Source: Isoetes taiwanensis (lineage: Eukaryota; Streptophyta; Lycopodiopsida; Isoetales; Isoetaceae). From it: a stretch of DNA of 64,000 nucleotides. The stretch spans positions 6,775,563 to 6,839,562 of the forward strand of contig JAJEKV010000014.1 in NCBI GenBank assembly GCA_021234155.1, read 5' to 3'. Position numbers and translations under genes: made by a program. Within the stretch, counting starts at the first letter, position 1. Each line of letters opens with the position of its first letter. This document shows positions 5,978 through 43,352 of the stretch, piece by piece. The notes under the pieces were generated by a model. That model did no database searches. It saw only the letters and a list, made by a program, of their open reading frames with translations, and was not told the origin of the DNA.

Positions 5978-5978
<1 letters not shown>

Positions 5979-13790: not shown

Positions 13791-13851
13791 TTGGGGCCCT
13801 GGCCGCCTCTTTGGCGACCTGGAATGACTTGGAGCAGTCACGTAAGGCATT

Positions 13852-16344: not shown

Positions 16345-16783
16345 CCTATGACTTTAATCGCAAGACATCTGCGCCCTTTCATGGATAGATGAGTGCACAG
16401 GTAGCATTGCGGGCCCCGCTCTAACATGGGATTTATATGGTGTTGATAATGTGTCGTCTTGACCTGTTCAAGGGTGTTGGCATCCCATAGCTTGCTGAGG
16501 AGGCATGTGTCAAGGTATTGTCTGAGAGTGTGGCGAGCTGCCTCCGTTTGCACTCGGATGCGCCTGCCTGCATATTCCATCTGGCCAGCCACTGAGCTCT
16601 CTTTTCCCGCCGGCAGGCTTTTAGGCATTGAGGCCCCATTGCCATAGTGTAAGCGAGATTAGGGAGACGAGTATTGTCCATGTTGACCACCTTCTGGAAG
16701 TAGACGATGTGTCTGTCAAGGGCCCCCCTTTAAAGAGGCAAGAAACCTATTTTCTGCAACAGTATCTGGTATGGGACTGTGGA
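16345..16783 (-). mobile_element. LINE copy C, C-terminal part (left of the LTR element)
   Basis: The minus strand reads QWLARWNMQAG, LRQYLDTCLLSKLWD and HYQHHINPMLERGP, the same domain as in copies A and B. At 16690-16778 the nucleotide sequence follows copy A at 8010-8110, then stops where the LTR begins and resumes at 35300. Bases 16779-16783 (GTGGA) are the left target duplication of the LTR element. The usual 3' UTR and simple-repeat tail are missing on the left side. Confidence 0.8.
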
Positions 16784-18025
16784 TGTGACGCTTCCAGAAT
16801 CTATACAATGCGCCCATCGTACAAATATGGGAATTCCCCTCCCACGGCGCCTACATCACCATAGCAAGGCCCTCTGTCATACTCGAAGCATAAGACAATG
16901 GCTAGGGTAGTCCTCTCCATCCGCCCCTCCTGTGTACACTTTGCAAATAGGCTGAATCATGCTATGACGTGCTTGTAGCCCTCCGGAGATGCAATCCCAA
17001 GGAATCACCCTACAGGACTACTCCGGGTTACATCTCCCTGGTCCAATGAGGCAGGTCAGAGAGGCGTCTCCTTCCCGAGCATGACGGATCCCTGGGTGTA
17101 CTAGAGAACAAGTGCCCCCTCAGTGACCCCCGCATCTGTACACGACTTACTCCCCTAAATCTAAAGGCCGGCTCACCAGCCCGTTCGAGTCCAGGGCGTC
17201 CATATAGGCACGTTTCCTGAGACCCAGGGAGTGTCAGACCCATACCCGGCCCACACACAGTGACTGGCTATAAGCCTAGAACACTATAGGAGTATTGTAG
17301 CCACGCTAGGCAAGACCCCACCCCCGATTCACCATCATGCTCGTTATCTGGTGCTGAACCACATCATAGCATCCTCAGCCAGGTTGGCTCTTATGCATAG
17401 GCCGCAAATATTGGGTATTAAGGGGTCTAGTTAGAGATATCTCTACTGCTAAGAGGCTTTTAGGTCTCTACCCTTCCCTTAATTCCCAATACACGGAAGA
17501 AGCAGAAAGAAAAAATATAAATATCATCTAAGTATTCAGAACAACATACAAAAGAGAATTTAATCATTCCATATATTCAAAGAAGGGTCAGCAGAAATAG
17601 AAATTATCTAAGGACTAACCAGTCTCTTGGCTGGAGCAGTTGTCACGGAAGGCTTCCATAGCTTGAGGCCGTTGACAAGTACTGGCAAAGATGGGCTAAA
17701 GTTGGTAGCTGCTGCTCCTCCTCACTCGACAATACAAATTTGGGCAGAAATGGGGGGTAGGACCCCTATTTCTCCAACCAAAAGAGCAAGTCCCCCTTGG
17801 CCAATCGATTTGGCCCAGGTGGCACCCCCTTATTGGTGACCTTTAATTAATTAGACTCCAATTAGCATAATTAGGTTAATTATGCTAATAAAATCCATAA
17901 TTATCCATTGATTTCTAATAAAATCCATTTTAGGTGAACCCCCACTTGGGCCCTAGGCCTAGTTACATGCTGGTGACGTGTCATGATATGCATACGTATA
18001 CCGTATAAATACCTGGAACGTCACA
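16784..18025 (-). repeat. 3' LTR of the large gypsy element
   Basis: It starts TGTGACGCTTCC and ends GGAACGTCACA on the plus strand. It matches 33766-35299 along its length, though the two copies differ in length by about 290 bases. The polypurine tract lies just inside. Confidence 0.93.
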
Positions 18026-18038
18026 TTCTCCCCCCCTT
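18026..18038 (-). other. Polypurine tract
   Basis: On the minus strand AAGGGGGGGAGAA sits immediately before the TGTGACG of the 3' LTR. This is the usual plus-strand primer of LTR elements and fixes the element's orientation. Confidence 0.9.
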
Positions 18039-18439
18039 GGATTAATGCTGTCCTCGGCATTAGAGTTAGTGGAGATTAAATATGGAAAAGATAAGTCTCA
18101 TTTATTGAAGACAACAAAAGGTTACATATTCAGGGGGTAGGACAAAAGTCCTTTAACAAACATAAGTAGTAATAGAGTAATAACTCAAGAGTACACTCAA
18201 ACAGACAATTTCAAAAACACAAGTTGGCCTCCAGGGTGAGGCCCAGGTTCTTCTGCAGTCTCTCAGTACGCTCTACTGGCCTGCAGAAGTGAGGCACATT
18301 AGTGTTTACGAAATAAATTAAGTAGTGTGGTTGAAGGGACCACCCCCTTAAAAAAATTGAAAAAATATGGCGTAAGGAATGCATTATAGCCGAAGACGTA
18401 TGCATCCTATGATGAATACCTATATGCCCAGTTTCCCAT

Positions 18440-21218
18440 CTAAGATGCATGTAACCTAAACCCTACAATGATCCCTGCTGGATCTTGCTCATATGACCCC
18501 TGTCGGACTAATAACGCTATGCTTACCGTCAGGGTTGGAGATGATCGCATCTTGAATGGTTCGGTCCTGGCATTCTTTCGTAAAGTCCGGGTAAGTCTTA
18601 TCCAAATCCGCTTTAAGAACCCATGTTGCGTTCTCTGTACCAAGTATTGCAAAATTCGAGTTCGACGGGTTTGCTTATACGCGAGATCAAGGAGAGCTTC
18701 AGGCACAATCTCCAACTGATCCGCGGTCATCTCCAGAAGTGTTGGTGTATCAAGAACCTCTTCTGGATCAGGATGATGCTTCTTGAGAAGACTTACATGG
18801 AAAACCGTATGAATCTTCAAATGTGCAGGCAGATCCAACCGATAGGCTTGGGAACCTATCCGTTCGGTTAGGGGCCCGCCCATCTGGATGCAAGCTTCTT
18901 ACAATTGCCAATCTTGAGTTGACTTTAATCTTTAGCCAAACTGAATTCCCGACCTTGAATTCACTTGGTGTTCGATGTCGATCGGCAAGACTCTTTTATC
19001 GAGCTCTTGCAGCTAACAAAAATGCTCTAACTTCGTCCACAAGCGCTTGCATATCCGTAAGCAGCTACTAAGAGACTTCCACCTTGGAAACCTGATTATG
19101 CCACGTGTCTGGAGTGAGGCATTGATAGCCGTAATTTATCATGAAAGGAGACATCCTTGAGGACTCCTGTCTAGTGCTGTTATAGGCAAATTCTACCAAA
19201 TGGATGTAGTCTGCCCACCGAGATTGTTTGTTCCAGACATAGTTACGTAGCATATCTTCAATTATGGATTGGTACGCTCTGTTTGACCATCTGTCTGCGG
19301 ATGATAAGTTGTGCTCATGGCAAGCTTAGTTGAATAGTGCTGAATAAATCTTTCCAGAATGTGCACTAACAAACTTGGGATCCCGATCTGATATAATAGT
19401 ACGGGGCATCCCATGCAGACGAAATACCTCCTTGGTAAACAACAAGGCAGTATCCAATGCAATGTCTGTGGTACGACATCATAGAAAATGTGCCATTTTA
19501 GAAAGTTTGTCAATCACTACCATTAAGGCATCAAACCCTCTTAAGGTGCTCGGAAGCCCAACGATAAAATCCATTTTGCATTGGAGACATCGAGGGATTG
19601 CAACTCCCCTGGGGTACGCAACTGCTCAGCCTTTGTTTGCTGACAGATCTGGTATTGCTTAATGTATCTGGCAATGTGCTTCTTCATTCCTGGCCAGAAA
19701 TAGCTGGAGCAGATTTTGAAATATGTCTTCATAAATCCTGCATGTCTTGCTATAGGACTGTTATGCATATCATGAAGAATGAGCTTACGAACTCCTGATG
19801 TCTCGGGAACACATAACTTATCCTTATAATAAAGGAGTTCAACGTCCTTCTTATAATGGCGGAAGGTCTCCCTTTCCTTGTCCGTCCTGGCTTCCTTAGA
19901 TACACTTTGCCATATCTCCTGGAATTCTGGGTCTATGGGAAGGGCTTGCTGTATCTGCCTCCCAAACTCACTGGAGTGTGGATATAGCATTACAATGCGT
20001 TCGAGTGACCAATGGATGCTTGGAAAGGGCATCAGCAACAACATTATGCTTGCCCGGCTTATAGATAACTTCAAAATCATATTCCTCAAGGAATTCCATC
20101 CATCGTCTTTGTCTCAAGTTGAGGTGAGGTTGCGTGAAGATGTATTGGAGGCTTTGGTGATCAGTATCTAATTGGAATCGTCTTCCAAGTAAATAGTGCC
20201 TCCAAATGAGCAAGGCACGCACAACCGCGAGCAACTCTTATGCGTGGGGTGTCGCTGTTCTGCGTCGTTCATCTTTAGAGAATCATGGTAATACACCGAC
20301 CTTCTTGCATTAAAACTCCACCCGTAGCTATTTTACTAGCATCTGTGGTAACCCACTTATCCTTTTGAGGATCTGGCATGGTGAGAACCAGAGCTGTTAT
20401 CATCCTTCAATGATTGAAATTCGTCCTGAACCCTGTCTTTCCAATGTGCCATCCAATCCCTAACCTTTTCATACTTGGTCAGATCCGTGAGAGGCGCAGT
20501 GAGCTTGACGAAATCTTTGACAAACTTACGGTAGTAACCGGCCAAGCCTAAAAAACTGCTGACCTCAGACACATTGGTTGGAACTGGGCACTCTTTTACT
20601 GCTTCAATCTTAGCTGGATCTGTGGCTATTCCTTCTGCAGATACAATATGTCCCAGGTAATCAACCTTGGTGGTTGCAAAGCGACACTTGGAGAACTTGG
20701 CATATAGTTGGCGGCGCCTCAATTTCTGTAAGGCCAACCGAAGATGCCGTTCATGGTCCTCTAAGGTCTTACTATATATGAGGATATTATCGAAGAATAT
20801 AATGACAAAATCATCAAGGTATTCACGGAAGACATCATTCATGAGCCTCATGAAGGTGGCCAGGGCATTAGTCAGGCCAAAAGGCATCACAGTGAACTCA
20901 TAATGCCCATAACGCGTCTAGAAAGCATAATCCTCCTTAATCCGTATCTAGTGATATTCCCGACCTAAGGTCAATTTTTGTAAAGTACTTAGCCCCTTGC
21001 AACTGATCCATTAGATCGTCCGCCCGTGGCAAAGCATACCGATTCTTAATAGTATGCTTGTTTAGTTGGCGGTAATCGATGCATATTCTTAAGGTGCCAT
21101 CCTTTTTCTTGACGAAGAGTATCGGGACCCCGAAAGGTGAGGCACTGGGTTGAATGAAGCCTAATTTGAGGAGCTCTTGCAACTGCTTCTTAAGCTCTGT
21201 TAATTCAGGAATACTCAT
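18440..21218 (-). pseudogene. gypsy pol: RT, RNase H, integrase, chromodomain-like end
   Basis: From right to left on the minus strand: RT ([20 protein letters not shown] near 21100; [22 protein letters not shown] and [11 protein letters not shown] near 20880-20640), RNase H (LDTDHQSLQYIFTQPHLNLRQ near 20150; KHNVVADALSKHP), integrase zinc-binding and core regions (HAGFMKTYF, YHPQTDGQTERTNP near 19265), and the integrase tail with LPAHLKIHTVFHVSLLKKHHP and a weak chromodomain-like end. Order and wording are those of plant Ty3/gypsy chromoviruses. It is a fossil, broken several times. Confidence 0.85.
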
Positions 21219-22772
21219 TCGATATGGGGCCTTACTGGTAGGCTTGGTGCCTGTTCCAAGGTGATTTCACATTCCATTCCTCTAAAAGGTGGCAATCGAT
21301 GAGTCTCTTCGGGGAAAAGGGCATAGTATTCCCGAAGAACCACTGCTATTGCCGAAGGCAAGGTATCAAGAATTTCAGTCTGCTTGGACTTAGTTTCCAC
21401 TGAAGCAAGTCGAATCATGCCAATGATCCGGGATTTCCTGGGAGCCCTATGCAACTGGCGTAATGAAATACATTGCATAATGAGGATAACTGGCTTACCT
21501 GCTATGGTCACTCGGGTTCCATTGGATGCATTGAAGGTCACTTCCCCCTTCTCACAGTCAATGTTGGCCTTGGCAACAACCAGGAATTCCATTCCCACAA
21601 TGAGATCATAATGACCAATATCCATTATCTCCGCTCCTAGAGCAACAGGTGCTCCTGATAGCTGAATATTCAAATTGATGCATTGACCCCGTGTGTGACG
21701 TACAGCCCCACTAGCCAACGTAACTGGACGTGGCTTAGACTTCAAGGGAGTGAGCTGTAAAGCCTCTGCCATTCTAGAAGATGCAAAATTATGCGTGCGG
21801 CCAGTGTCCATGAGGATAATGAAAGACTTACAATCTACTTGGCCAACTGTGGAAATGACAGAAGGCTGATGGTTGGCTTGACCCGTTTCAATGGCAGCGT
21901 AGATATGAGACTCACCTGTTATATAGTCATGCGTGTCATCGTCAGCAGCATTGTCCGGATGGTTTGGGTCCCCTGCGGCTTCCCAATCCATGTCAGTGAG
22001 GGCGGCCTGCACCGTTTGTGTAATATAGGGGCATTCCTGCATGCAGTGTCCCGGGCGGAAACATCGATAGCAAGCCTTGTCCTTGCGTAACTGTTCACAG
22101 GCCTCCTTAGGAATGGCTTGGAGGATGTCTCTGAAAGCTCGCGCAGTGTTGGTAGACTTATCTGGTACGGTAAAGGAAACTTTCTTCTTGGACTTATCTG
22201 GTACGGTAAAGGAAACTTTCTTCTCGGACTTCTGATATCCGGTAGCGGCGGGAGGCCCCGGACTAGGTGAGCACCCCCTGAAAGGTGTATATCTCTTGTT
22301 CTGACTGAAAGAAGAGGGTCGCGATGGTTGATACTTGGGAGTATCCTCTTCTAGGCTAAGGGTTTTAGACTCTGCTTCTGCAACTGTTTTGGGGTCTATT
22401 GCTCGAACCATTTTCCTCAAAGTAGGGGATAACCCCTCAATGTACCCTTCAACTGCCCTGCGCTCATTTATCTGGGACATATAAGCGTAACCTCATGAAC
22501 TCATCCGTATATGACTGGACGGTTATGTTCTTCTGTTCCAGACGGTAAAAGGTTTGGATCTGTTGACAGCGGTGAACCCTGGGCACATAATGAGATTTGA
22601 AGGCTTTAGCAAAAACCTTATAGCGGCACCTTCCTCTCGTCAGCCCCTGGGAGCGAGCATATCCCTTCCACCATATACGAGTAGAACCTGTGAGATTGGT
22701 GGTGGCAACTTTCCCGATATCTTTCTCGGTCATTCCATACGACTTACCGAACACAAGGCCCCCAAAAATTAA
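21215..22772 (-). pseudogene. gypsy gag (C-terminal half) and protease
   Basis: The capsid-like start is GMTEKDIGKVATTNLTG and WWKGYARSQG (22750-22640). A zinc knuckle CYRCFRPGHCMQEC is near 22040-22080, with a short internal duplication (KKVSFTVPDKS twice) just before it. The protease DTG motif with HNFASSRM follows near 21800. Gag is normally longer at its N-terminus; the sequence beyond 22772 is unrelated. It is a fossil, mostly open over 420 residues. Confidence 0.8.
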
Positions 22773-25700: not shown

Positions 25701-26134
25701 ATATTTTCTAAATTATAATTATGGTCTCGATAATGGTACGAAGGTATATTTTAAAGGCCTTGAAGTTATCAGAACCGTCAGTTAAATATAATACTATTGG
25801 AACTAATATATCCAATATTACTATAATGTTAACGTGGGAATATTACCTTAAGATAGTTAACTTAACTGCATGCATTAAAGGAGTCGAGAATCATGCAAGA
25901 TTCCAGGGTAATGCTTATTTAAGATCTTAACTAAACCGTGGTAAGGATGTAAATCCTTCCAAGGATAGGTGTACGACCTTCAGGGTCCTTGTAAAAAAAT
26001 AAATTAATTTCATGTATACGTAAGTGCGTCGTAGGTATATACTTCTAAGGGTAATGCAAACCCCGAGGAAGAGAATAAGAAGCACATGCTTAATTCTTGT
26101 GTATGATAATTAAAACCATACATATAATCTTGCC
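22773..26134. other. AT-rich foreign segment inside the LTR element
   Basis: Similarity to gypsy stops abruptly at 22773 and resumes, on the other strand, at 26135. The intervening 3.4 kb is AT-rich. On the minus strand, 24286-24060 and 23740-23640 encode hydrophobic, membrane-like stretches (for example ELLAFIAFISLLISTGIASY), the second preceded by an acceptor-like TATTTCCAG; they might be exon relics of a host gene, which I do not recognise. At 25497-25560 and 25935-26000 there are two related copies of an AGGATGTAA...CCAAGGA...TCAAGGTCCTTGTAAA phrase about 435 bases apart. A tRNA-like head (GGTTCAAACCC B box) lies on the minus strand near 23405-23475. Confidence 0.5.
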
Positions 26135-27187
26135 TGATGGTCGTGGTCGACAAGCTGTCGAAGATGGCACACTTTGTGCCTTGCAGGACCACCGACACAG
26201 CCTCAGATACAGTGGCTCTCTTCACAAAGGAAATCTTCAGGCTCCATGGTATGCCGAGAGAGATCATCTCCGACAGAGACCCGAAGTTCATGAGTGCCTT
26301 TTGGCAGGATCTTTTTGTAACGATCCAGACGAAGCTGTCCATGAGCACGGCCTATCATCCTCAGACGGATGGGCAAACAGAATGGACCAACAGAATCAAC
26401 AGAATCTTGGAAGATATGCTAAGAAACTATGTCTGGAACAAGCAGAGTAAGTGGGAAGATTACATTCACTTGGTTGAGTTCGCTTATAATAAGCACCAAG
26501 CAGGAATCATCCCAGATGTCGCCGTTCATGATCAACTACGGCTACCAATGTCTAACTCCAGACAATTGGCACAATCATGTGTCAAAGGTAGAGGTTTCGC
26601 AGCAAATGTTGGCCGACATGCAGCAGCTGGTAGAAGAGGTCCGAGGATATCTTCTCGCAGCAAGGAGTCGACAAAAGAGTGTCGCCGACAAGCATCGGAC
26701 GGTCAGAGAGTTCCAGATTGGCGACAACGTCTGGCTCAAGATCAAAGTAAAGCAGGCAAAGCTCCGCATCGGAAATTGTAAGAAGCTTGCTCCAAGGTGG
26801 GCTGGCCCTTTCATAATAGCCAAGAGAGTAGGTAACCAATCCTACAAGTTAGAGTTGCCAGCGCACCTGAAAATTCATAAAGTCTTCCACGCGAGTTTGC
26901 TAAAGAAGCATACTCCAAACCCAGAAGAAGTCTTGGACACGCCAACGTTGTTGGAAATGACAGAAGAGCAGCTAGAGATAGTCCCAGACTTGATCCTTGA
27001 AAAGGCGATCAAGAAGACAAGGAGATCAGAGTTCCTCCAATATTTGGTCAAGTGGAAACACTTGTCGGTGGAAGACGCGACATGGGTTAAGAAGGACCTG
27101 ATAAGGCAGTACCCGCAGTTCATGGAGCAATGGAACGGCAAGGTCATCTCCGAAGTAATCGGCTCAGGCATATCGATTTATGTCTAG
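26135..27187 (+). pseudogene. Nested gypsy integrase with chromodomain
   Basis: The integrase core is recognised by VVVDKLSKMAHFVPCRTT, the [15 protein letters not shown] motif and YHPQTDGQTE. The tail is recognised by LPAHLKIHKVFHASLLKKH. The last 60 residues (FLQYLVKWKHLSVEDATWV, then LIRQYPQF) fit a chromodomain, the module that lets chromoviruses recognise modified histone tails. It is better preserved than the copy at 18.4-19.5 kb; a few breaks. Confidence 0.85.
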
Positions 27188-28124: not shown

Positions 28125-29645
28125 TGTGACGTTCCAGCACAGTATACAGTCCCAGGACATATATAGTACTGCCTCGTCACGCATACACGCCATCCCGATT
28201 GACGTGTACGCCGACGTGTAGCTAAGCAAGTAGCACCCTAGGGGGCAACTTGCAAGTGTGTGCACATTTATTCATGTGTACACTTTAGCCCACTTAATTA
28301 ATATAGGCAAGTGGGCCACATCCAATTATCCCACATGCTCAAGGGCTAATAGAAACCCTAGCCCTAACTTATGGTCTATATAAGGCATCTGAAACCCTAA
28401 CTTTCTATTTTCGTCCACAGCCTTCTAGAACTTCGTTTTGCTTGCTCCAAGAGCCAATCTTGCCTCCCGAAGTGTGTCTGAGCAGCTTAGCTCATCAGCT
28501 TCCCTTTTTAGCTTCATCTTCAAGCAGATCTGCAGCATGGACGCATTCAGAGCAGGAGGAGCAAGCCAGGGATCAGGTATTTTGCCAATTCAATAGTCTA
28601 ATCCGCCTCCCAGGCATAGAGTAAGTAGGTTTAGCCTATTGAATCGGCCATAGCAGCCATCTAGACCTCTAGATACCAAGCCTTAACTAAAGAACCTAAC
28701 TCTGTGATTTAGATTAAATATTATTCTTTAGTTTTTCTATGATATGTATGTGATGATGATCTCTGTGGAATCATTGTATTGGGAAGGGGGGTAGAGGCCT
28801 TAAAAGCCTAGTAGTTTGATGCTCCTAGCTAGCCCTCTTTAATGCACTATTAAATTCGGCCTTTGTACAAGAACCAAACCTGGTTGTGGGTAGAGGGACC
28901 AGACTGGCTTACAAGGAGGTGCATGTCCTGGCTCATGATTACGTCCCTCTGGTAGTAAAGCCTATCGGGGACTACATTGCACTGCGGGCTTTGCATGGGT
29001 TCGACACTCTTGGGGTGGTGGACACCTTCCATGGAGTTCAGTCGAGTATGGGCAGTGGCCCTCTAGTCACCTTGAGCCAGCATGCCAACCTCTGGTGGGA
29101 GCAATCCCTACCTGCCCCATCGGAACTGGGGAGATGCAACCCAGGAGTAGCCCCTCTGGCTATGCATCCGGCGGGCTACAGTCAAGTCCCAAGACTTTTC
29201 AACCTACTCTGCAAAGTGTGCACAGGAGGGGCGGATGGAGTGGACTACCCTAAGCCATGTTCTTATGCCAGCCAAATCCATTTGCCATGAATTTTGTCTG
29301 CAATGACTTCTGGAGGCCCAAGCCATCAGTCATCCCTCTTAAGTCCGAGCCTTGGGTAGGATCTCCCTATGTGATGTACTGATCTTTGTCTATGCAGATA
29401 TGTGGTGAGCCATCCTTCGTGATGGTCCTGTGATGTTGATGTTGTATACTGACATGTATGTTACGCTTCCGCAGCTAGGTAGGCCCTGAGGAAGACAGGG
29501 TAAAATGACCCCTTCATTCTTCCCACTGGAACACATCAAGGTTGCAGTGATACGTGGAGGGCCTTGTATCAGCATGGAGCTGGTATGGGGGGTGCACTCC
29601 TGTTTGTATATGGTGAGTGCACTATATATAAGTAGGGGACGCACA
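28125..29645 (+). repeat. LTR of the nested element
   Basis: It begins TGTGACGTTCCAG and ends GACGCACA. It aligns, with many differences, to the LTRs of the host element read on the minus strand, for example around CTGCAAAGTGTGCACAGGAG at 29210-29230 and in the last 250 bases. A TATA box (GTCTATATAAGG) is near 28375. The open stretch at 28886-29290 is LTR, not a gene. Confidence 0.85.
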
Positions 29646-29650
29646 GTCGT

Positions 29651-30370
29651 AAGGGGATAAAGGATGGAGTATCGGATGCTCTCCCTTACTGCACGGGCCA
29701 TCTTATACTTAGCCCAAGCTTGAACGATCACATCCTGAAACTCGAAGGTTGGGCTGATAGTTAAAAGGCTAAAAAGGTCGCGGAGCGCGTAGTACAGTGT
29801 TGCCAAAGATGATCGTCGGCATCTTCGAAAGCTTCTTGTTTAGTGCAGTCCCAGTACGACCAACTTTGGCGGAGGGTAAGTTTTAGGTGCTCGTAGGCAT
29901 GGTCGCAGAGGATCGTAACAATCTGGAAGTCGTTGGTGGGGTCGTATGGCTCCTCCTCTCCTGCAATAAGCCGAAAATGGATATACAATTTATAAGTTAT
30001 TCCATATACTTCAAAGTCCTCAAAAGAGAGACAAGTAATATAGGAAAAACAAATTTTTGTATTAAGAAAAAGGCATCAAAATTATGGATGCAATAATACA
30101 TATAATTGAGTGGCCAAAGTTCGTACTCTATAATGCCTTATATGTATATCTAGGAGCTGGGTCCCACGTCTTGATCCATCGGTGTAGGGGGTGATGGTGG
30201 CGGCCGATGGCATAGCAGGGTAACCACTGGATCTACGGTGGTGGCTACAAGAGAAGCAACCTCTGGTGGATAAGCAGTAGCCAAAGGGGCTGCCGTAAGG
30301 AGCTTCATGCTCATCCACGGTGCTATGTCCTGACCCAAGGTTGTAAAGGCGAAGTCCCGCACTAGCACAT
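29651..30370 (-). pseudogene. Extra frames of the gypsy element, last part before the nested insertion
   Basis: Open minus-strand stretches (about 30370-30150, 29988-29761, 29806-29651) read on from the 350-residue frame. Recognisable only as protein-like: an acidic GEEEPYDPTNDF stretch and ISPTFEFQDVIVQAWAKYKM. No family identified. The nested element cuts them off. Broken, few breaks. Confidence 0.45.
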
Positions 30371-30453: not shown

Positions 30454-31506
30454 TCAAGCTACAAAAAGGACCTGCCCTTGCCGAAAAGCCGATAGGAAGA
30501 AGCGTGTGAGGTGGTTCCCCAACGCTTTGCCCTGTGGTGCGACCGAAGTAGCCACTTCCTTATCGAGGTCCATGGTGACCTCTTCCTCCTTGAGCTCCTG
30601 TTTTTCCTCCTTAAGATGACTGGAGTTATGATAGAGATCTTCCCCTTCTTCATCTGACTCGGAAGGAATGTCGACCATATTAATATTTGGGACGTGAGGT
30701 CCCATGGCCGTAAAGGCTTTCTGAGGAGGCTGAGATGGAGGATCTTGAAGTACAAGATCTCTGAGCCGAAGAAGAGTATCGGTCGGCTCGATAGTTTCTT
30801 GATGAAACTGGAGCAACTGCTGTACTTTTGGAGGAAGCTCCACTGGTGTAAAGTCAATAAAATCATCTATGCAATATTCGGGCAGCTCATAGAGCACTTG
30901 TGCTTTATCTCGGCCCTTCAACCCGGCCACTACATGGTATGTCCATATAATATTCTCCAATAGGAGGAACTCCTGCCCTTGGTGATAGATAACCGGAAGG
31001 GCATCCAATCTGGTCAAGCGTGTCCTCTGATCCCAGTGTGGCGACATCTGTTCGGCCAACTGCTTCCACCAGATAAAGTCATCCATCCTTATATACTCGT
31101 CTTCTTCCTCATCTGAAGACTCAGGGACCTTGCCCTTTTTTGCCGACAGGGTGTCATCCTCCACATACTGGTCCATAAGAATGGCCAAGGCAAAGGCCAC
31201 TTCAAGGTATTGTTGGCCTTCATGTGTGACGACTGGTGGACTGCGGCCCCATCGAAGTTTACCCTTGAGTATATCGTATGCATGTGTGTCTCCGCCGAGC
31301 ATTTTCTTTACCACCGCTCGTTCTATGTAGAGCTGGGGTGGATCTCCCAAAGGAATGCAAAGGGGAAGCATGTCTTGAATATAGAACTCGAGGAAACCCG
31401 CGTAGTCAGGATGACTCTGCATGTTGGCTATGAGGTCTATCTTCTGGAGGAGGAATGGCTGTAAGAGATCAAAGAGTACTTGGGGGTGGGTCCCAGTGCT
31501 CTCCAT
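30454..31506 (-). CDS. 350-residue acidic protein of unknown function in the LTR element
   Basis: This frame is open for 350 codons on the element's strand, starting MESTGTHPQVLFDLLQPF. It has a helical-looking N-terminal half (LEFYIQDMLPLCIPLG, LEVAFALAILMDQYVED), an acidic patch ESSDEEEDEYIRMDD near residue 130, a middle part with WWKQLAEQMSPHW and YHVVAGLKGRDKAQ, and a highly charged end (SESDEEGEDLY, KEEKQELKEEE). It has no zinc knuckle, protease or polymerase motif, so it is not ordinary gag-pol. It lies 3' of the histone-like frame by about 275 bases. Ogre-type gypsy elements also carry an unexplained frame before gag, but I see no sequence link. Function unknown. Confidence 0.6.
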   Translation of the reverse strand: MESTGTHPQVLFDLLQPFLLQKIDLIANMQSHPDYAGFLEFYIQDMLPLCIPLGDPPQLYIERAVVKKMLGGDTHAYDILKGKLRWGRSPPVVTHEGQQYLEVAFALAILMDQYVEDDTLSAKKGKVPESSDEEEDEYIRMDDFIWWKQLAEQMSPHWDQRTRLTRLDALPVIYHQGQEFLLLENIIWTYHVVAGLKGRDKAQVLYELPEYCIDDFIDFTPVELPPKVQQLLQFHQETIEPTDTLLRLRDLVLQDPPSQPPQKAFTAMGPHVPNINMVDIPSESDEEGEDLYHNSSHLKEEKQELKEEEVTMDLDKEVATSVAPQGKALGNHLTRFFLSAFRQGQVLFVA

Positions 31507-31780
31507 CCTGATACCATTGAAGCAGGTTTGGGGTCGTCATTGGTGCTGCAGATGCGTGGAGGAGGAGGACAAAAGAAGAGATAAGAAATAGCAAACGAAA
31601 CCCTAAAAACTTTTAAGTAGCTTTTTACTTTTATGCTGACGTCAGCATCAATATTTAAATAATTATTGAAATTATTTATTTATTATTATTATTCGTTTTG
31701 AAACAGAGTTTTAGTAAATAAGATCCGATTATATTCATATCTATACAAAATTTGATACAAAAAGATGTTTGGTAGACAAG

Positions 31781-32167
31781 CTAGTTGTGGTCTCCCCGAA
31801 TTCTTCGGGCGAGAGCTAAATTTTTTGTCATAATAATGATCCTCTTCGCGTGGATGGCACAAAGATTCGCATCCCCAAAAAGAGCTACGAGATAAGCCTC
31901 AACAGCTTCCTGTAGTGCTAGAATAGCAAAAGTTTGGAAGCGCAGGTCGGTCTTAAATTCTTGGGTTATTTCTCGGACCAACCGCTGGAAGGGCAGCTTC
32001 CGTAACAGCAACTCCATGGTCTTTTGGTACTTACGGATCTCTCGTAAGGCCACAGTACCCAGTCTAAACCGATGAGGTTTCCTCGAAGTGGCTGCCCTCT
32101 GCGTCGGTGCGGGTTTCTTGGGCAAAGTCTTGCCCCCAGAGACTGGGTGAAGCCAAGCTGCATCCAC
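31781..32167 (-). CDS. Histone H3-like protein inside the LTR element
   Basis: From about residue 31 to the stop (32077 down to 31784) the frame aligns with histone H3 from Pro38 to its C-terminus, 98 residues, no gaps, about three quarters identical by my count. Conserved blocks include [42 protein letters not shown] and LARRIRG, that is the alpha-N helix, all three histone-fold helices and the buried Cys/His pair of H3. Loop 1 has the canonical H3 length, not the longer loop of centromeric H3. The preceding [12 protein letters not shown] stretch resembles the H3 tail around Lys14. The frame starts with GTG, so the true N-terminus is uncertain. It shares strand and position with the element's other extra frames, between primer binding site and gag. 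Confidence 0.85.
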
Positions 32168-32359: not shown

Positions 32360-33067
32360 CTACTTGGCAAGCTCCTTCTCTTGCCGCTGCTGCTCAGCCC
32401 TCTCGGCCTCTTCCCGAGCAGCACGGGCGGCGGCCATGCTCTCTTCTGCTTCGGCAAAACGCCGGGCCGCAATCCTCTGGATCAGTTCTGTGTGGTATCT
32501 TTCCGGCCGGGCTTGCATGTCCAACTGAATTACTATTAAGTAATCCAGGTTAAGATAAGATGGGACCTCACTCCAAGTAAAACTTTGGGTAGCCTCATCA
32601 TATTCATATGGGGGAAGGTCAAGGGGATTGCAGTTGATGATAGCTCTCCCGTCACCCAGGTAGATACATTCATGCCCCCGAGCCTCTGGGTCACCCCTCT
32701 CCATTTCCCTGGTGTCGTCTGCACGGGCCAGCTCCCTGATGTGGGCTGCCTCCTTCCGTATAGCTTCCTCTTCGGGGACTTCCTCACACTCTGGTGGATA
32801 AAACTTGACCAACATCATAACTTGGTCAGGTTGCTCAACTATAGTGTATGGCTGTTTAAGAAGGTTAAGCTTTATCAAAAAGCGCTCAGAGAGATGAAAG
32901 ATAGGGTAAGGTATCCGATGCCCGGCAACAAAACATTGTACAAGCTGGACCAAGAGTAGCTCGACCTTGGCGGGGCCGGTAGCTAGATGTTCTCCTAACT
33001 GGGCAAAAATTTGGGGTATGTTGAGGGAGCCATAGCTCTGGGTACTTTTAGTACGTGCCATATTCAT
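32360..33067 (-). CDS. First extra frame of the LTR element: ARTK start, coiled-coil end
   Basis: This frame of 235 codons is the first after the primer binding site. It begins MNMARTKSTQSYG; ARTK-x-T is the start of the histone H3 tail. Residues about 15-90 look helical (FAQLGEHL, VELLLVQLVQCFVAGHR). The centre is acidic and charged (EEVPEEEAIRKEAAHIREL), and the last 50 residues are Ala/Glu/Arg-rich with heptad spacing (AAARAAREEAERAEQQRQ), a likely coiled coil. No retroviral capsid or zinc knuckle motif is visible. It lies just upstream of the histone-like frame on the same strand. Family unknown; it could be a gag replacement or an accessory protein. Confidence 0.6.
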   Translation of the reverse strand: MNMARTKSTQSYGSLNIPQIFAQLGEHLATGPAKVELLLVQLVQCFVAGHRIPYPIFHLSERFLIKLNLLKQPYTIVEQPDQVMMLVKFYPPECEEVPEEEAIRKEAAHIRELARADDTREMERGDPEARGHECIYLGDGRAIINCNPLDLPPYEYDEATQSFTWSEVPSYLNLDYLIVIQLDMQARPERYHTELIQRIAARRFAEAEESMAAARAAREEAERAEQQRQEKELAK

Positions 33068-33603: not shown

Positions 33604-33752
33604 CTCCTACACACTAATAGGTCATTCCCCCCATAACTAAACCGACTAGCATGCTAACTACAGAGTTTGACTACTTTAACCTAAGAGAAAGTACCGTCAA
33701 CTAATGAGTTAGGCTATTGGCCAGTGCAATGATTTTGGTCCATCAAAACCAT

Positions 33753-33764
33753 GCTTTGATACCA
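33753..33764 (-). other. Primer binding site (initiator Met type)
   Basis: TGGTATCAAAGC on the minus strand, one base inside the 5' LTR, matches the common plant retrotransposon site TGGTATCAGAGC complementary to initiator tRNA-Met at 11 of 12 bases. It fixes the element as running right to left. Confidence 0.9.
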
Positions 33765-33765
33765 C

Positions 33766-35299
33766 TGTGACGCTCCCAGAATCTATATGATGCACCCATC
33801 GTACAAATATGGGAATTCCCCTCCCACGGCGACTACATCACCATGGTAAGACCCTCCGTCATACTCGGACCACTTGGCGAGGAACACGGAGGTGTCATTC
33901 GTCCCACATCCTCTATGGGAAATCCTATACAGCAGAAGCATATATACACATTAGCATACAACAGTCATGCAAACATAATATACCACCACGAAGGGTGGCC
34001 CATCCATCATCATCAGTGAAAAGACAGTACAACCATAATAACATGAAATAAACACCATGACAAGGCGCTACCCTGGGCTCAGACTCCAAGGGGTCAACTG
34101 ACGGTCAGGGTCTCAAGATATCAACAGACAGAAGTATAACATGGCGTTGGCTGGAATAAGACAATGGCTAGGGTAGTCCACTCCATCCGCCCCTCCTGTG
34201 TACACTTTGCAGATAGGCTGAATCATGCTATGACGTGCTTGTAGCCCTCCGGAGATGCAATCCCAAGGAATCACCCTACGGAACTACTCCGGGTTACATC
34301 TCCCCGGTCCGATGAGGCAGGTCAGAGAGGCGTCTCCTTCCCGAGCATGACGGATCCCTGGATGTACTAGAGCATGCGTGCCCCCTCAGTGACCCCCGCA
34401 TCTGTACCCGACTTACTCCCCTAAATCTAAAGGACGGCTCACCAGCTCGTTCGAGAACAGGGTGTCCATATAGGCACGCCTCCTGGGACCCAGGGAGTGT
34501 CAGACCCATACCCGGCCCACACAGTGACCGGCTATAAGCCTAGCATACTGTAGGAGTCCTGCAGCCACGCTCGGCAAGACCCCACCCCTGATTCACCATC
34601 ATGCTCGTTATCTAGTGTTGAACCACATTATAGCATCCTCGGCCAGGTTGGCTCTTGTGCACAGGCCGCAAATATTGGGTATTAAGGGGTCTATCTAGAG
34701 ACATCTCTACTGCTAAGAGGCTTTTAAGTCTCTACCCTTCCCTTAATTCCCAATACACAAAAGAAGCAGAAAGAAAAAATATAAATATCATCTAAGTATT
34801 CAGAACAACATACAAAAGAGAATTTAATCATTCCATCTATTTAAAGAAGGGTCAACAGAAATAGAAGTCATCTAAGGATTAACCAGTCTCTTGGCTGGAG
34901 CCGTTGTCACGGAAGGCTTCCATAGCTTGAGGCTGTTGACAAGTACTGGCAAAGATGGGCTAAAGTTGGTAGCTGCTGCTCCTCTTCACTCTCCAATTCG
35001 AATTTGGGCAGAAATGGGGGTAGGACCCCTATTTCTCCAACCAAAATAGCAAGATCCCCTTGGCCAATCGATTTGGGCCAGGTGGCACCCCCTTATTGGT
35101 GACCTTTAATTAATTAGACTCCAATTAGCATAATTAGATTAATTATGCTAATAAAATCCATAATTATCCATTGGTTTTATTAGCATAGCCAATAAAATCC
35201 ATTTTAGTGAACCCCCACTTGGGCCCCTAGGCCTAGCTACATGCTGGTGACGTATCATGGTATGCATATGTATACCGTATAAATACCTGGAATGTCACA
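33766..35299 (-). repeat. 5' LTR of the large gypsy element
   Basis: It starts TGTGACGCTCCC and ends GGAATGTCACA on the plus strand, 1534 bases. It is followed by GTAGA, the right target duplication, and then directly by LINE copy C. Confidence 0.93.
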
Positions 35300-36930
35300 G
35301 TAGACTTCATCCCCAGGGTCCATGCCAAGAAGCTTTCTGCACCTGCTCCAAGTCATTCCAAGTGGCGAGGAAATCACCGGGCCCCAGACCTCGACCCCAT
35401 GCAGAAGCACAGGTTCTAGTAGTACCTTGAATAGGTGTGATTGGTGGGCCCAATCATACCGTTATGCCTTGTGGCTATTGTTCTACATTGCATAGAGTGC
35501 CTTCCAACCTGCTGCGGCTCGTAGCCGAATGGAATTGTCCCAGTTCATGGCCGATGGGAACTCCAACCCCAAATATTTGTAAGCGAACACCACTTCAACA
35601 TTTTGGCCACGATAAGTTAGGGTTGGCGCCCTTGATTGGCATGTGGACGGTACGAGAACTACCTTGGTCTTGGCTAAGTTGATGCGCATATCAATCATCT
35701 GGCAAAATATGTCCAGGGCATCGAGATGACATTGCATGTTTGCCTGAATGTGTGCTAGGAGGTCTACTCATCAGCATAGATCAGCTGCCTGGTGATCTGG
35801 TTTAGGAGTTGAGCACCAGTGCCTCCATTATCAGTGAGCCATCTCTCTAGCTGATCAATATACATGCCAAATAGTGTGGGAGAAAGGGGGCATCCCTGCC
35901 AGACCTCGATACTGCTCTCGAATGCTTGGCCCGCTGGTTGCAGTCGGCCTGTGCATGTCTCATGTAACCTGTACACCGCGTTCTGTAGTTCGACAGGGAC
36001 GTCTAGCTGTTGCAGTCTTGTCCACAGCTTTTCCCGAGGCACAGTGTCAAAAGTTTTGGCGAAGTCTACGAAGCAGCAATACAGATCTTGTCGACGATTC
36101 CTGTTGTCCTCGACCAGAGTCTGCAACGTGAAGATATGATCTATAGTTGAGTGTCTCGGCCCAAATCCCGCCTGCATGAGTGCCCGCACTTCTTATGCCT
36201 TTGCCCATCCTGTCAACTGCCGCTCGAGGATCCCAGAGAGAAGCTTTGCAAACACTGAGCTGATCATGATGGTTCGGCAATTGGCCGGGCAGTGCGAGTC
36301 ACCTGCCTTGTAGATTGGGACAACCATGCTAGTGGTCCATTGGGGGACCTTCCCCGCAATGCCTTGTTGAACACGTCGGTTAGTATCGGTGCCATGGATG
36401 GTCCTGCCCACTTGAGTAAATCCGCCTGCATGCCATCAAGGTCTGGTGCTTTTCCATTGGCTAGACGTTGTAGCCCCTGGGCTACCTCTGCCTCTGTGAT
36501 TTCCAGCACTGGGCCCTTTTGAGGGGGTAATGCGGCCCGTGCACCTTCAAGGTTATAGAGTTGCTGTAGGTATTGCCCCCACTAATCTGGAGTGATGTTT
36601 CCTGTGGGCGGCATTGGCCTCATGAGCAATCTTCGCTAGAAGGTCCTCGGATCCCATTCCAGGAGGAAGCACATCTCCTGTTGATGGGCCGCAATGTATC
36701 TGGCCTTTCTAGCCTTAAGGAAGTGCGGTATTGCTTGACTGCATCCGGGCATATAGCAGGATCTGTGACTTGGCAGAACCAATGTTTGCGTTTTTTACAC
36801 TCGGCATCGAACCACTGGTTATGCGAAAAGGCCGTAGTTCTCGAGGTTTGCCAGGGGCAAGTGCTCCCAAAACATCTCTCTGCAGCAGCCCTGAGGACGT
36901 CAATGAGCCTGCCTGCCTATTGCTCTAGCA
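35300..36930 (-). mobile_element. LINE copy C, RT part (right of the LTR element)
   Basis: Reading from 36930 leftwards: the endonuclease-RT linker (RLIDVLRAAAERCF, QWFDAECKKRKHW), LANGKAPDLDGMQADLLKWA near 36440, a 141-codon open palm (36189-35764) with GFGPRHSTIDHI, FVDFAKTFDTVPREKLW and QGCPLSPTLFGMYIDQLE ending at the YADE motif, then HLDALDIFCQ, NLAKTKVVL and KYLGLEFPSA. One or two frameshifts are visible. It is the best-preserved RT of the family here. It continues at 16778 on the far side of the LTR element. 5'-truncated at 36930. Confidence 0.85.
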
Positions 36931-37465
36931 TTGAGCACTGTGAGAATAGAATAGAATAGAATAGATTTTTTATCACGGAGACCGATTGGCCTATGGGACC
37001 CAAACAAAAAGAGAGCAGCAAGCGTATTACTGTCAGGATTAAAAAACCCCCGCTCCGAAGGGTTTTCGAGGGAAAAAACTTAGCAGTAATAAGTATGCTG
37101 GCACACTGTAGAATTGTATAGGACAGTTCAATACTGTCCCGGAGGACACAACTGAGTCCGTGCATCCATAACCTCCTGGAGGTATGACCATAGCAAACCC
37201 ACTGACACCGTATTCAATAACTCATGCAACGGTTGGCCATGCACTAGTAATCGAACATATCACTCTTGGATATGGGCAAATGCTGGGCAAATCTGGAGGG
37301 CATGACATTCATCCTCAATGGCGCCCTGGTGGCAACACTGGCAAAGCCTTTCCTCCCGTGCTTCCCAAGTCCAACGTCATGTCTCAATGCGGAGACGATG
37401 TGCACAAGTGCGGATGGAAGCTATAAGTCTGCGCTTCTTCATGGGCAAATGAGAAGAAAGTTGGA
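36931..37465 (-). mobile_element. LINE copy D, 3' end only
   Basis: A (GAATA)n run at 36942-36964 is the simple-repeat tail of a minus-strand copy. Next to it is the family terminus (GGAGACCGATTGGCCTATGGG) and the CCCTTCGGGG-type hairpin region (here TCCGAAGGG), as in copies A and B. The 5' side reaches about 37465, within the C-terminal coding region (CATCCTCAATGGCGCCC, compare 7600). It sits exactly at the 5' end of copy C. Confidence 0.8.
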
Positions 37466-38371: not shown

Positions 38372-39888
38372 CTCCCTCCCTCCATGCCTCCTCCTCCTCC
38401 TCCGTGATGTACAAAACATGGTAATCGCGTGGTATTTACTTGTTAAAGCTATAGTAAATGTACCTCTTCTGAGAAGAAACTTTTTTGTCACATCAAAATT
38501 ATCCTACAGAATTTGCAGGCAAAGGTGTCCTCTTACAGAAGATTAAATTGGTTGCTTGGCAAACATTGGCAATATGAGTTTTCAGTATTATTTATAGCAT
38601 ATGATTGTTTGAGGTTTAGAGCACGTTGAAGCATAGGAATTGTCTTCAAAGTTCTAGGTTGAAGCAATTGAACCAGCCAATATATCTATGCTGCTATTCC
38701 TAAGCATGCACAACAAGCCTAAACTTGATCAATGAACATGGTTGCTAGATATGTAAATCACGACAATATCTCCTTAATTTGCTCATCCAATTATGATACA
38801 TGCAATTTTAATGAGAACCTCCATTTCGTTCTGCATAAACACTTGTCCTTGATTCTCTTTTCTATGCTGGCTAGCATATCCAGTTAATTTGAAGGTACAC
38901 TATTGCATTGAAAAACATTGTGACCTATCTTTTCTACCATGTAGATTGATTGGTGTTTCATTGCTATCTTTGATACTAAAATAAAATAATTTCTCACCTC
39001 CCCTTTTTGTCTTGAACATTTTTTTGAAAGATCTTGCAGTTAGTTTTTTTTTTTTTTTTTTTATTTTTTATTTAAGCTATTTTGCTTTAATTAAGCAATA
39101 TTGGAACATTTGTTTCAATAATTGTTTCAATGAGAAAATAAAGCTCAATACAGGATGTGGCCCTGCTTAAAAAGCACGGTACTTGTTTGCAAAAAGCCAA
39201 GTTACGGCAAAGGAGAAAAGCCATAAAATATGTTATTTGATAAGAGATGCTTATGGTGAGGCCGATTGTGATGAAAAGGGCCAAGTGTGGCTTTGTATAA
39301 GTGTGGCTTTGTATAAGGTATGCTATATCCATCGCGGTCTAATTTCTAAAATTATTTTTTAAGACCAAGTTCATGCATTTGGATTTGCTTGGAAAATGCA
39401 CATGGCAATCGTGGCCCTAAAGTATGGCGCCCAAATGGCCGCTTTTGTAATCCCCTGATTGTTCACATAGATCCTATGGCCATTCACGATCAGGATGCTT
39501 AGTTATGGCGGTTCTGCTAAGATAGGTATGCCAGGTTCTGCTAAAATAGGTATGCCAGTAGCCGCTTTTGCATGATGTGGAGAAAAAATCGTGGTAAGCC
39601 TTGGGTTTTATACTTTCTGTAAACAACAATAGAAGGTTGTTCTGCCCTGTAAGGATGATTTCGACCTATGCTACAAGGTTTCTGGCCTGTTCTGCTCTAG
39701 CTTATGGCAGTAAAAGTGCAGGTGTTTTACCTTAAGCGGTTGTTCCAGAATCATTGGGTTCTTGCCGGTTTATATAAGTGATGCATTTTCCGGTGGAGGA
39801 TAAAGTAGCTTGACAAGTTACTATGATATCGGCTACTTCTATTCAGACCAATGGAGTAGGAAGTCAAATGGTTAAGCAAAGACAACCT
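38372..39888 (+). repeat. 1.5-kb duplicated segment, copy 1 (order A-B)
   Basis: Part A (38372 to about 39040, CTCCCTCCATGCCTCC ... GATCTTGCAG) is followed through a T-rich run by part B (about 39062-39888, TTTAAGCTATTTTGC ... AAAGACAACCT). Both parts recur at 41811-43303 at about 99% identity but in the order B-A. No gene is recognised; a TATATAAG box lies in part B near 39771. Confidence 0.95.
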
Positions 39889-41810
39889 ACGACTGATGGG
39901 AGCGCAAAAAACTCAGGTTTTTATGCATAAAATATTTCCTGTCACATGATGTATAGAAATGTAATGCTGTAAAAAGAGCGTGATCCCAATAGTTCTACAG
40001 ATTACTATGCCATTCCTTTTTAGGGATAAATTGTTTACTATATTTTACTTGCTCCAATATGAATGCCTTGATCATAAACGTCTGGTTAAATGGCATGGTT
40101 CAGAACTGTGATGTTTAAGCAACTACAGCTATATGGGTTTGCTTGAATGAAATAAATGGGCTGAGTTTTCTAACCGCAGTGGGATCTTGACCGGGTTTGT
40201 TAACATGGTTGCACAGATAGGCATCCTGCTGGTGTAAGTCTTATGCAGGATAATGATTCACTAGTTTGTGTTATCTGATTAATACTATAGACCTATATGT
40301 GCTAGGATGCTTGTAGCATGTCTAGGCATCTATTATTTAAAGCAGCCACTGATTTATTCTTACGTGCTTGGATGCTTGTAGCACGTCTACGCATATTATG
40401 TCTAAAGCAACAAGGTTTGTTTGTTGTAGTTTAAAATGATATAAATGTTTGGATATGCTATGAAATTGACTATGGTTATCAAGGTTGCCGACTAGATTTG
40501 GGACTAAGAAATTAGTTCTCGTCTAATGGTAATGCTTGAGACCATAATGCTTGAGACCAAATGGGAAATTTAAAATATCGTATTCCAGTTTCCTTTTCTT
40601 GTTAAATGTCACCTCAGGGCAAAAGGATACAATTGGTGATCAGCGATAAGCTGAGAGACCCAATGTACCTTTTGGCCCTTGCACATTTACCATTATCATG
40701 CTAATTGTGTATTGATTGGTCGCGCAGTGCGGGTTCTCTCCTCCAATTGTGTTTATTTTGTTTGTTAGAGTTGGCTTTAGCTTGAAGGATGTGGAATATC
40801 GAAAAAAAGACATGGACAAAGGTTTGGAGTCATCATCCATTGGAATATGGGCTGCAATATTGACGATCTACGTATTCAAAATGATTTAGTAAGACAACTA
40901 TTTTAGATTACTGATACACATGGTAAGATCCTTTTGGCTCAAGTGTATCCATGCCAAGTTCTGGGCATAATGTTCAAATTATAGTACATAGAGTTTATAG
41001 TTTATGTAACTGCACATAATTCGAATTGAATATTGTAGCAGATGAATTGCATCTATTTTATAATGATTCTAATGAGTAAACAATGGTCTTCAAATTATTT
41101 AGGCTTTGGGAAAAGAGGTACTAGTCTAGACTGGCTTGCCCAGTTTAGATATTAGGATGATAATACTGCCAAGGGATTGACCGAGGCAGATGCTGGTCTA
41201 GCGTTTGCTAGTTTAGGCCGGGTTTTTTTTAGACACTTCATTTCACTAGGGACACCTGGTGATGCCTCTCTCCCTTTGCTCTAGGTGATTTTGAAGATTA
41301 AACATTTTTGGGAGCTTTCCTTTGCATTTAGTATTTGGTCTTTTTGTTTAAATAGACTAAGCTACATGGTTATTTATGTGCAGGTTGCATATGAGGCTAT
41401 GCAGATTGCTTATGCCAGGGTATTCTATTCAGGTACCCTGGTTATGAATAATAATTCATCAAGAACGTGCATTAATGGCAGATGTCATTATTACACATAT
41501 GGCAATTGCTATATTATGCCACTTGGCTAAAATCCTTAATACAAGGATATTAGGATATTGTTTGTATGCTTATGCATGATGAAAGGGCAATGTCCAATGT
41601 TAAATTGGCTGTTGCAAAGAGGAAGTTCCTACTACAAATACATATTGCAGTAATGAAAGGGTATGTATTTGCATTAATTACATTCTATATATATGGCTAA
41701 ATAGCTATAGGGTATGGCATTACCCCCACTGTAATGGTGGGGTCTTGCCATCCCTATAATTACAGTTTTATATACAGGGGTCATGTTATACTCTACGGAA
41801 GGTGGTAGGG
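39889..41810. other. Unique spacer between the two permuted copies
   Basis: 1.9 kb, AT-rich. A 52-base open stretch near 41383-41432 (VAYEAMQIAYARVFYS) has an acceptor-like TTATGTGCAG before it, but no known protein fits. It ends GGAAGGTGGTAGGG before a T-run. Confidence 0.4.
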
Positions 41811-43301
41811 TTTTTTTTATTTAAGCTATTTTGCTTTAATTAAGCAATATTGGAACATTTGTTTCAATAATTGTTTCAATGAGAAAATAAAGCTCAATAC
41901 AGGATGTGGCCCTGCTTAAAAAGCACGGTACTTGTTTGCAAAAAGCCAAGTTATGGCAAAGGAGAAAAGCCATAAAATATGTTATTTGATAAGAGATGCT
42001 TATGGTGAGGCCGATTGTGATGAAAAGGGCCAAGTGTGGCTTTGTATAAGTGTGGCTTTGTATAAGGTATGCTATATCCATCGCGGTCTAATTTCTAAAA
42101 TTATTTTTTAAGACCAAGTTCATGCATTTGGATTTGCTTGGAAAATGCACATGGCAATCGTGGCCCTAAAGTATGGCGCCCAAATGGCCGCTTCTGTAAT
42201 CCCCTGATTGTTCACATAGATCCTATGGCCATTCACGATCAGGATGCTTAGTTATGGCGGTTCTGCTAAGATAGGTATGCCAGGTTCTGCTAAAATAGGT
42301 ATGCCAGTAGCCGCTTTTGCATGATGTGGAGAAAAAATCGTGGTAAGCCTTGGGTTTTATACTTTCTGTAAACAACAATAGAAGGTTGTTCTGCCCTGTA
42401 AGGATGATTTCGACCTATGCTACAAGGTTTCTGGCCTGTTCTGCTCTAGCTTATGGCAGTAAAAGTGCAGGTGTTTTACCTTAAGCGGTTGTTCCAGAAT
42501 CATTGGGTTCTTGCCGGTTTATATAAGTGATGCATTTTCCGGTGGAGGATAAAGTAGCTTGACAAGTTACTATGATATCGGCTACTTCTATTCAGACCAA
42601 TGGAGCAGGAAGTCAAATGGTTAAGCAAAGACAACCTCCCTCCCTCCATGCCTCCTCCTCCTCCTCCTCGATGTACAAAACATGGTAATCGCGTGGTATT
42701 TACTTGTTAAAGCTATAGTAAATGTACCTCTTCTGAGAAGAAGCTTTTTTGTCACATCAAAATTATCCTACAGAATTTGCAGGCAAAGGTGTCCTCTTAC
42801 AGAAGATTAAATTGGTTGCTTGGCAAACATTGGCAATATGAGTTTTCAGTATTATTTATAGCATATGATTGTTTGAGGTTTAGAGCACGTTGAAGCATAG
42901 GAATTGTCTTCAAAGTTCTAGGTTGAAGCAATTGAACCAGCCAATATATCTATGCTGCTATTCCTAAGCATGCACAATAAGTCTAAACTTGATCAATGAA
43001 CATGGTTGCTAGATATGTAAATCACGACAATATCTCCTTAATTTGCTCATCCAATTATGATACATGCAATTCCAATGAGAACCTCCATTTCGTTCTGCAT
43101 AAACACTTGTCCTTGATTCTCTTTTCTATGCTGGCTAGCATATCCAGTTAATTTGAAGGTACACTATTGCATTGAAAAACATTGTGACCTATCTTTTCTA
43201 CCATGTAGATTGATTGGTGTTTCATTGCTATCTTTGATACTAAAATAAAATAATTTCTCACCTCCCCTTTTTGTCTTGAACATTTTTTTGAAAGATCTTG
43301 C

Positions 43302-43303: not shown

Positions 43304-43352
<49 letters not shown>

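Follow-up and report, generated by a model that had tools for sequence, protein, structure and literature searches.

A chromodomain Ty3/gypsy retrotransposon of Isoetes taiwanensis carries a histone H3 fold under strong purifying selection

Histones in mobile elements

Few host proteins match histone H3 in conservation or in regulation, and it is on the H3 tail that transposon silencing is written. Histones are also encoded by giant viruses and bracoviruses; unlike the case described here, these are DNA viruses and involve no LTR element. The closest precedent comes from fungi, where hAT DNA transposons carry captured H3 sequences in Pyrenophora tritici-repentis (PMC3538342) and in Pseudocercospora fijiensis and its relatives, with all copies but the original inactivated in the latter group (PMC6710886). 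As in Isoetes, a mobile element captured and amplified an H3 coding sequence. The H3-like protein of P. tritici-repentis (H3L) is described as having insertions in the tail and as fully matching neither H3 nor CenH3 (PMC3538342). The Dothideomycete elements differ in being DNA transposons with inverted repeats, reported at tens to hundreds of copies, which are nearly identical in P. tritici-repentis and RIP-inactivated in P. fijiensis (PMC6710886). In contrast, the Isoetes element is an LTR retrotransposon in which H3 is fused to the first open reading frame (ORF1) and whose copies are diverged and strongly constrained. A hAT identity was rejected for the Isoetes element, given that LTRs and gag-pol are found instead of terminal inverted repeats and a hAT transposase. 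The fungal elements are the closest precedent and not members of one family with it.

Among LTR elements, the Isoetes element shares gag, protease, reverse transcriptase, RNase H, integrase and chromodomain with plant chromoviruses, to which it adds three ORFs before gag, one of them with an H3 fold. Extra ORFs beside gag-pol are likewise described in Ogre elements of plants and in LTR elements of bdelloid rotifers (PMC6431247, PMC5408684), and the word 'histone' is absent from the accessible text of the first of these papers. It is also absent from the main text of two Isoetes genome papers, one of them PMC8566536, and from that of a plant gene-capture review from 2026 (PMC13317346). Among the titles and abstracts listed in literature searches (20 of 748 and 10 of 574 for two of the queries), a scope outside which most subscription papers and preprints fall, there was no LTR element with a histone. 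A sequence-only reading of this locus had named no described LTR element with a captured H3; the literature searched agrees, though H3 is carried by the hAT DNA transposons of fungi (PMC3538342, PMC6710886).

Anatomy of the H3-carrying element

The H3-bearing element is a chromodomain Ty3/gypsy LTR retrotransposon, and one copy lies on the minus strand of the 64,000-nucleotide stretch of Isoetes taiwanensis DNA analyzed here (the window). Its 5' LTR (TGTGAC...GTCACA; 33766..35299, minus strand) and its 3' LTR (16784..18025, minus strand) match at 92.9% identity across 1148 bp and at 91.2% across 102 bp, with ~288 bp of the 5' LTR (33868-34155) missing from the 3' LTR. They are flanked by a target duplication, TCTAC (35300..35304, minus strand), with one mismatch against TCCAC at the opposite end (16779..16783, minus strand). 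The primer binding site TGGTATCAAAGCATGG (33749..33764, minus strand), which we take to be of the tRNA-Met kind, runs as TGGTATCAAAGC from 33764 downward, one base past the 5' LTR, and the polypurine tract CCAAGGGGGGGAGAA occupies 18026..18040 (minus strand). Paired LTRs with TG...CA ends, both priming sites and a 5-bp target duplication together are those of a Ty3/gypsy chromovirus.

The histone H3 fold of this copy is open from Pro38 to the C-terminus (31784..32077, minus strand) and corresponds to the C-terminal domain of ORF1 in open copies. Its 98 residues read clean from the minus strand (32077-31784), and the plus strand of the same interval encodes no H3. The segment matches the Pfam Histone family (E=9.4e-37) and H3 chains in the PDB (best E 4.7e-48); the alignment to H3 is ungapped from aN to aC, both PDB alignments inspected were gapless from Pro38 to residue 133, and 76 of the 98 residues are identical to a host H3.3 gene. 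The sequence-only reading had reported just such a gapless segment, about three quarters identical to H3, on the element's own strand, between primer binding site and gag, and enclosed by both LTRs, both priming sites and a target duplication. All of this was recovered, the duplication being TSD-like with its one mismatch. The observation is correct and understates what is present: the larger ORF1 that ends in the H3 domain, the three extra ORFs and the H3.3-like look of the donor were beyond its reach.

Upstream of the fold, the frame runs on to a 235-aa ORF (32363..33067, minus strand; MNMARTKSTQ...) that encodes the N-terminal domain and linker of ORF1, in frame with H3 and separated from it by two stop codons. 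ORF2 (30457..31506, minus strand) is still open over 350 aa in the window (466 aa in copy L045), and an ORF3 remnant follows (29390..29839, minus strand; 164-166 aa from stop to stop in L041, L043, L045, L047 and L049); both belong to families without known relatives. The gag and pol pieces span 22492-18440 and comprise, on the minus strand, the gag C-terminus with a zinc knuckle (by eye) and an aspartic protease (RVP_2) at 21215..22492, a reverse transcriptase fragment (RVT_1, E=5e-20) at 20357..20917, the zinc-binding domain of integrase at 19541..20113, and the SH3-like C-terminal part of integrase with a chromodomain remnant seen by eye only at 18440..18898. This broken integrase and chromodomain piece gave no Pfam chromodomain match.

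Other repeats lie in and around this copy. Nested inside it at 26128-27187, on the plus strand, is a piece of a different chromovirus that by eye runs from integrase to chromodomain, and ~250 bp at 29110-29359 are LTR-like (73%) in inverted orientation. The flanking sequence appears LINE-like by eye, as does a 1.5-kb inverted repeat (80% identity) at 7184-14829, with related pieces at 35306-37448. Two direct-repeat pairs at 38372-43337 (98.4% over 702 bp and 99.6% over 825 bp) follow one another as A B ... B A, A ending in T-runs; they represent either an unusual element, nested or rearranged, or an artefact of assembly.

In the host assembly (1,658,258,908 bases, 1110 contigs), the 98-residue H3 query returned 8018 first-look candidates; this number, like the 8952 of a companion search, counts unverified candidates and not copies. 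The best 150 were scored and all match (E<=2e-47), with identities to the query of 84-91%, the window itself aside. Many sit in frames between 400 and 508 aa long, and in 136 of the 150, a list ranked by match, the match is free of stops. The stops within the other 14 are all TAG or TGA with a single exception (L020, TAA), a bias that C-to-T changes would be expected to leave where sites are methylated. The H3-carrying element is common in the genome of its host, a quillwort from an old lineage of plants.

Ten copies were studied with ~20 kb of surroundings each, read as paired 10-kb tiles. Their H3 match had led to them and their long frames decided the selection, so that the presence of H3 is by choice and its place is not. 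The position of H3 is constant across all ten, where it continues the frame of one and the same ORF1, and the order is ORF1-H3, ORF2 and gag-pol parts, several downstream frames being broken. The sequence-only reading had asked whether H3 would recur at this place in other LTR elements, which it does in these ten copies, and had considered that a stray processed H3 pseudogene, bounded by its own target duplication or poly(A) tail, might have landed in this single element. The H3 part has no intron, as such a pseudogene would, but all 150 scored places match and the fold keeps one place and one open frame with ORF1 in ten of ten copies, which leaves this origin a vanishingly small chance.

LTR pairs were found in eight of the ten copies and are 90-97% identical, a range that omits a 98.4% repeat in L037. 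The latter is a 1.1-kb tandem duplication inside ORF2 (5070-7328 in coding orientation). All four copies with both ends located have target site duplications of 5-6 bp (CTAGC, GTTAT, CCCTT and GTGACC). The primer binding site TGGTATCAGAGC appears at the same position in seven of ten other copies, the pattern being unmatched in the remaining three.

ORF1 of the ten copies measures 411-430 aa and consists of a ~190-aa N-terminal domain, a Q/E-rich linker, a basic stretch and an H3 fold that ends near the normal H3 C-terminus. It is followed by ORF2, ORF3 (~165 aa) and gag-pol. Gag, protease, reverse transcriptase, RNase H and integrase were recovered in order from pieces of L045, L046 and L048 scanned separately, with a chromodomain after integrase in L048 (PF00385, E=4.3e-8). 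Because the Ty3 capsid, protease, reverse transcriptase, RNase H, integrase and chromodomain are all separate and typical, ORF1 is not gag. A query with the N-terminal domain alone, made without selection for H3, returned 3319 candidates; among the best 150 scored, 66 lie in frames of at least 400 aa, long enough for H3, and 84 in frames of <400 aa, for which the reading covered the match alone. At E<=0.001, no relatives of the ORF1 N-terminal part appeared among the best 8000 candidates from 5.8 billion proteins (the linker being of low complexity) and none of ORF2 among 2550 candidates scored from the same number. Against Pfam and PDB profiles, both gave weak, scattered matches only (best E 0.031 and 0.067).

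The region between the ORFs holds candidate regulatory signals. Between ORF1 and ORF2 of the window copy lies TGACGTCA (31637..31644), the core of the palindrome ATGCTGACGTCAGCAT (31632-31649), which we take to be a CRE/C-box-like, bZIP-type site. The same core occurs between ORF1 and ORF2 in seven of the ten copies (L031, L039, L041, L043, L045, L047 and L049), near 4904-4958 in coding orientation; such an 8-mer is expected about once per 64 kb, and a shared location is not expected by chance. Furthermore, in eight of nine copies with the ORF2 ATG located, it is preceded by a pyrimidine tract and by an AG 4-5 bases from the ATG (50 nt inspected), and similar acceptor-like sites seemingly precede ORF3 and gag in four copies inspected. 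The tract and AG before the ORF2 ATG suggest that subgenomic messages may be made by splicing.

Origin of the H3 domain and selection upon it

The copies share a set of diagnostic residues. E77, T86, F87, I89, L90 and L124 are present in all 37 element copies compared, A102 and A107 in 36, and A125 in 35; among the best 120 of 8000 scored H3 relatives, none has more than four of nine marker residues. L052 represents another kind of element copy, with F87, I89, L90, A107 and L124 alongside Q125 and A86, and is the only copy that retains a remnant of the tail, an STGGK-like stretch ahead of the fold. A tree of 47 sequences separates the element copies as a whole, L052 among them, from the outgroups with support of only 82; for the main group, which excludes L052, support is 98. 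Silent sites are saturated against the host gene in all 37 copies. Taken together, the shared residues, the tree and the saturation of silent sites make it probable that the domain goes back to a single old capture, with an H3.3-type gene of the host as its source.

A canonical plant H3 query identified 15 host H3 genes that match end to end in one frame (E<=1.5e-67), followed by a gap to E=1.6e-51, where 135 more scored places start; many of these, judged from the list, are places from the earlier H3 search or frames of >400 aa. L051, the single host gene that was read, resembles H3.3 (T31, Y41, E77, H87, L90). Its E77 and L90 are common to all 37 copies and its Y41 to five of ten, and its H87 is replaced by F in all 37. 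We take Y41, H87 and L90 to be marks of plant H3.3. By E77, L90 and, in half of the ten copies, Y41, and by these only, the donor looks H3.3-like. CENH3 has a diverged fold with a longer loop 1. An identity as CENH3 was rejected for the element's domain, which has no gap against canonical H3 and is identical to host H3.3 at 73-87 of 98 residues (37 copies, aligned with H3 alone). As a control, an H4 query returned 69 candidates and 43 matches, 16 of them full-length genes in frames of 107-146 aa, with a longest frame of 176 aa. The H4 matches being few and in short frames, H4 was not amplified as H3 was.

Of the element parts that we measured, none is as constrained as the H3 fold, which is under strong purifying selection across deeply diverged copies. 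All ratios are pairwise, and the copies were chosen by H3 match or long open frames, a bias that lowers dN. For the fold, mean dN is 0.057, dS 1.29 and dN/dS 0.044 over 37 copies (666 pairs), and dN is 0.045, dS 1.17 and dN/dS 0.038 over the ten copies, with dS saturated in none of the 45 pairs. Ratios for the comparison parts are rough owing to saturation of dS: 0.16 for the ORF1 N-terminal domain (dN 0.189; 27 of 45 pairs saturated), 0.23 for the linker (15 of 45), 0.076 for the N-terminal part of ORF2 (8 copies, 28 pairs; ORF2 dS saturated in 15), 0.115 for ORF3 (8 copies; 14 of 28) and ~0.21 for gag-PR-RT (dN 0.197; 4 copies, 3 of 6). The zinc-knuckle-protease segment was left out, with four of six pairs saturated and mean dN undefined. 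The dN of H3 is about four times below that of the N-terminal domain of the same ORF or of gag-PR-RT, and L043 and L045 differ in their H3 at 28 silent sites and in no amino acid. With its place fixed in ten of ten copies and silent changes far outnumbering amino-acid changes, the earlier suggestion that a host H3 was captured and kept under constraint is borne out. The anatomy of the H3-carrying element and the constraint on it are, in our judgement, very nearly certain.

This pattern of substitution bears on the proposal that H3 is a passenger, a functionless host fragment carried along by a successful family. Captured host fragments are described as common in plant LTR elements (PMC13317346). 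A passenger, however, would drift toward a dN/dS of 1 and lose its frame, and the value of 0.038 at a mean dS above 1, together with the stop-free H3 part in 136 of 150 scored copies (even if that list is ranked by match), makes this explanation highly improbable.

All ten copies keep the canonical H3 residue at 66 of the 98 positions of the fold, including R49, R63, K64, R69, R83, C110, H113, K115, R116, K122, D123, L126 and R129. We assume that these residues contact DNA, H4 or the second H3, with arginines among them entering the DNA minor groove and C110, H113, D123, L126 and R129 belonging to the H3-H3 and H4 interfaces. Positions changed in the element are 86-87, 102, 105, 107 and 124-125, and these changes could alter contacts with chaperones or H4.

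The canonical modifiable H3 tail is missing, and the N-terminal domain, linker and basic stretch of ORF1 stand in its stead. Homology to the H3 tail before Pro38 is weak and was not accepted for the main group: 512-1670 of 2000 shuffles did as well in the ten copies, compared with 351 of 2000 for the window and 33 of 2000 for L052. Mimicry of the tail was rejected as well. ORF1 of the window starts with MARTKST, close to the MARTKQT of H3, but among 23 ORF1 starts compared (some from overlapping loci) MARTK occurs only in the window (L001) and L003, with MARIK in L007 and MANTK, MANIK and similar starts elsewhere. An ARK(S/T) motif resembling H3K9/K27 lies in the basic stretch of six of the ten copies and is weak against shuffles, arising in 296 to 776 of 20000 for the three copies tested.

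Possible uses of an element-borne histone

Since selection on H3 is stronger than on the element's own gag-pol, making a histone is implied to help the element spread; this points to a mobile element that puts a histone of its own to use. Furthermore, strong constraint at the surfaces presumed to contact DNA, H3 and H4 indicates that these histone contacts are most likely still made. We give a probability of about 60% to the following account. A chromodomain Ty3/gypsy lineage would have taken up an H3.3-type coding sequence from its host, probably in a single event long ago, and joined it to the C-terminal end of ORF1. The H3 domain of the ORF1 protein (ORF1p) would fold with host H4, no H4 being amplified with the element, and host chaperones would load ORF1p into nucleosomes on element DNA or target chromatin. 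The ~190-aa N-terminal domain and the Q/E-rich linker would then be displayed where the modifiable tail of H3 would be. The likeliest use would be that element chromatin escapes being read as ordinary silenced chromatin, or that the element complex is tethered to chromatin.

Taken alone, nucleosome entry as the working mode of ORF1p may be proposed tentatively from sequence, at somewhat less than even odds. With similar caution, the element may encode its own functional histone variant, in which ORF1p, together with host H4, would replace host H3 in nucleosomes on element DNA; with its ~320-aa tail, the chromatin around element copies would no longer be normally readable to the host machinery that silences by reading H3 tails.

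Two other roles share parts of the same evidence. ORF1p could be a second nucleocapsid-like protein of the virus-like particle or pre-integration complex, with its histone fold and basic stretch binding element RNA or cDNA. The basic patch ahead of the fold (KRRRK, KRWRK, KHRRK or KHRKK in ten of ten copies), the position of ORF1 upstream of gag-pol, and the retention of the arginines presumed to contact DNA would all suit this role. However, a Ty3 capsid and a zinc knuckle are already present in the element, and the presumed H3-H3 and H4 interface residues are as invariant as the arginines, which exceeds what binding of nucleic acid by itself would require; we consider the role unlikely. Chromoviruses use chromodomains in targeting. 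ORF1p could accordingly act as a tether, its H3 domain marking or seeking chromatin and its N-terminal domain bringing in the integrase complex, in concert with the chromodomain on integrase. The presence of that chromodomain and the H3.3-like L90 of all 37 copies are consistent with such targeting, but the L048 chromodomain apparently keeps only one of three aromatics at the positions that we take to form the HP1 cage. Methyl-lysine reading is therefore doubtful, and targeting by a tether as the principal function of ORF1p seems improbable, to about the same degree as the nucleocapsid-like role.

With its ~320-aa replacement tail and diagnostic changes in its core, this natural H3 lends itself to work on the nucleosome. 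If the element does encode its own functional variant, a histone would be borne by a retrotransposon and maintained through selection acting on the element itself. The H3 kept by this retrotransposon, taken with the independent captures by hAT transposons of fungi, suggests that acting on chromatin in this way is a course that mobile elements have taken repeatedly.
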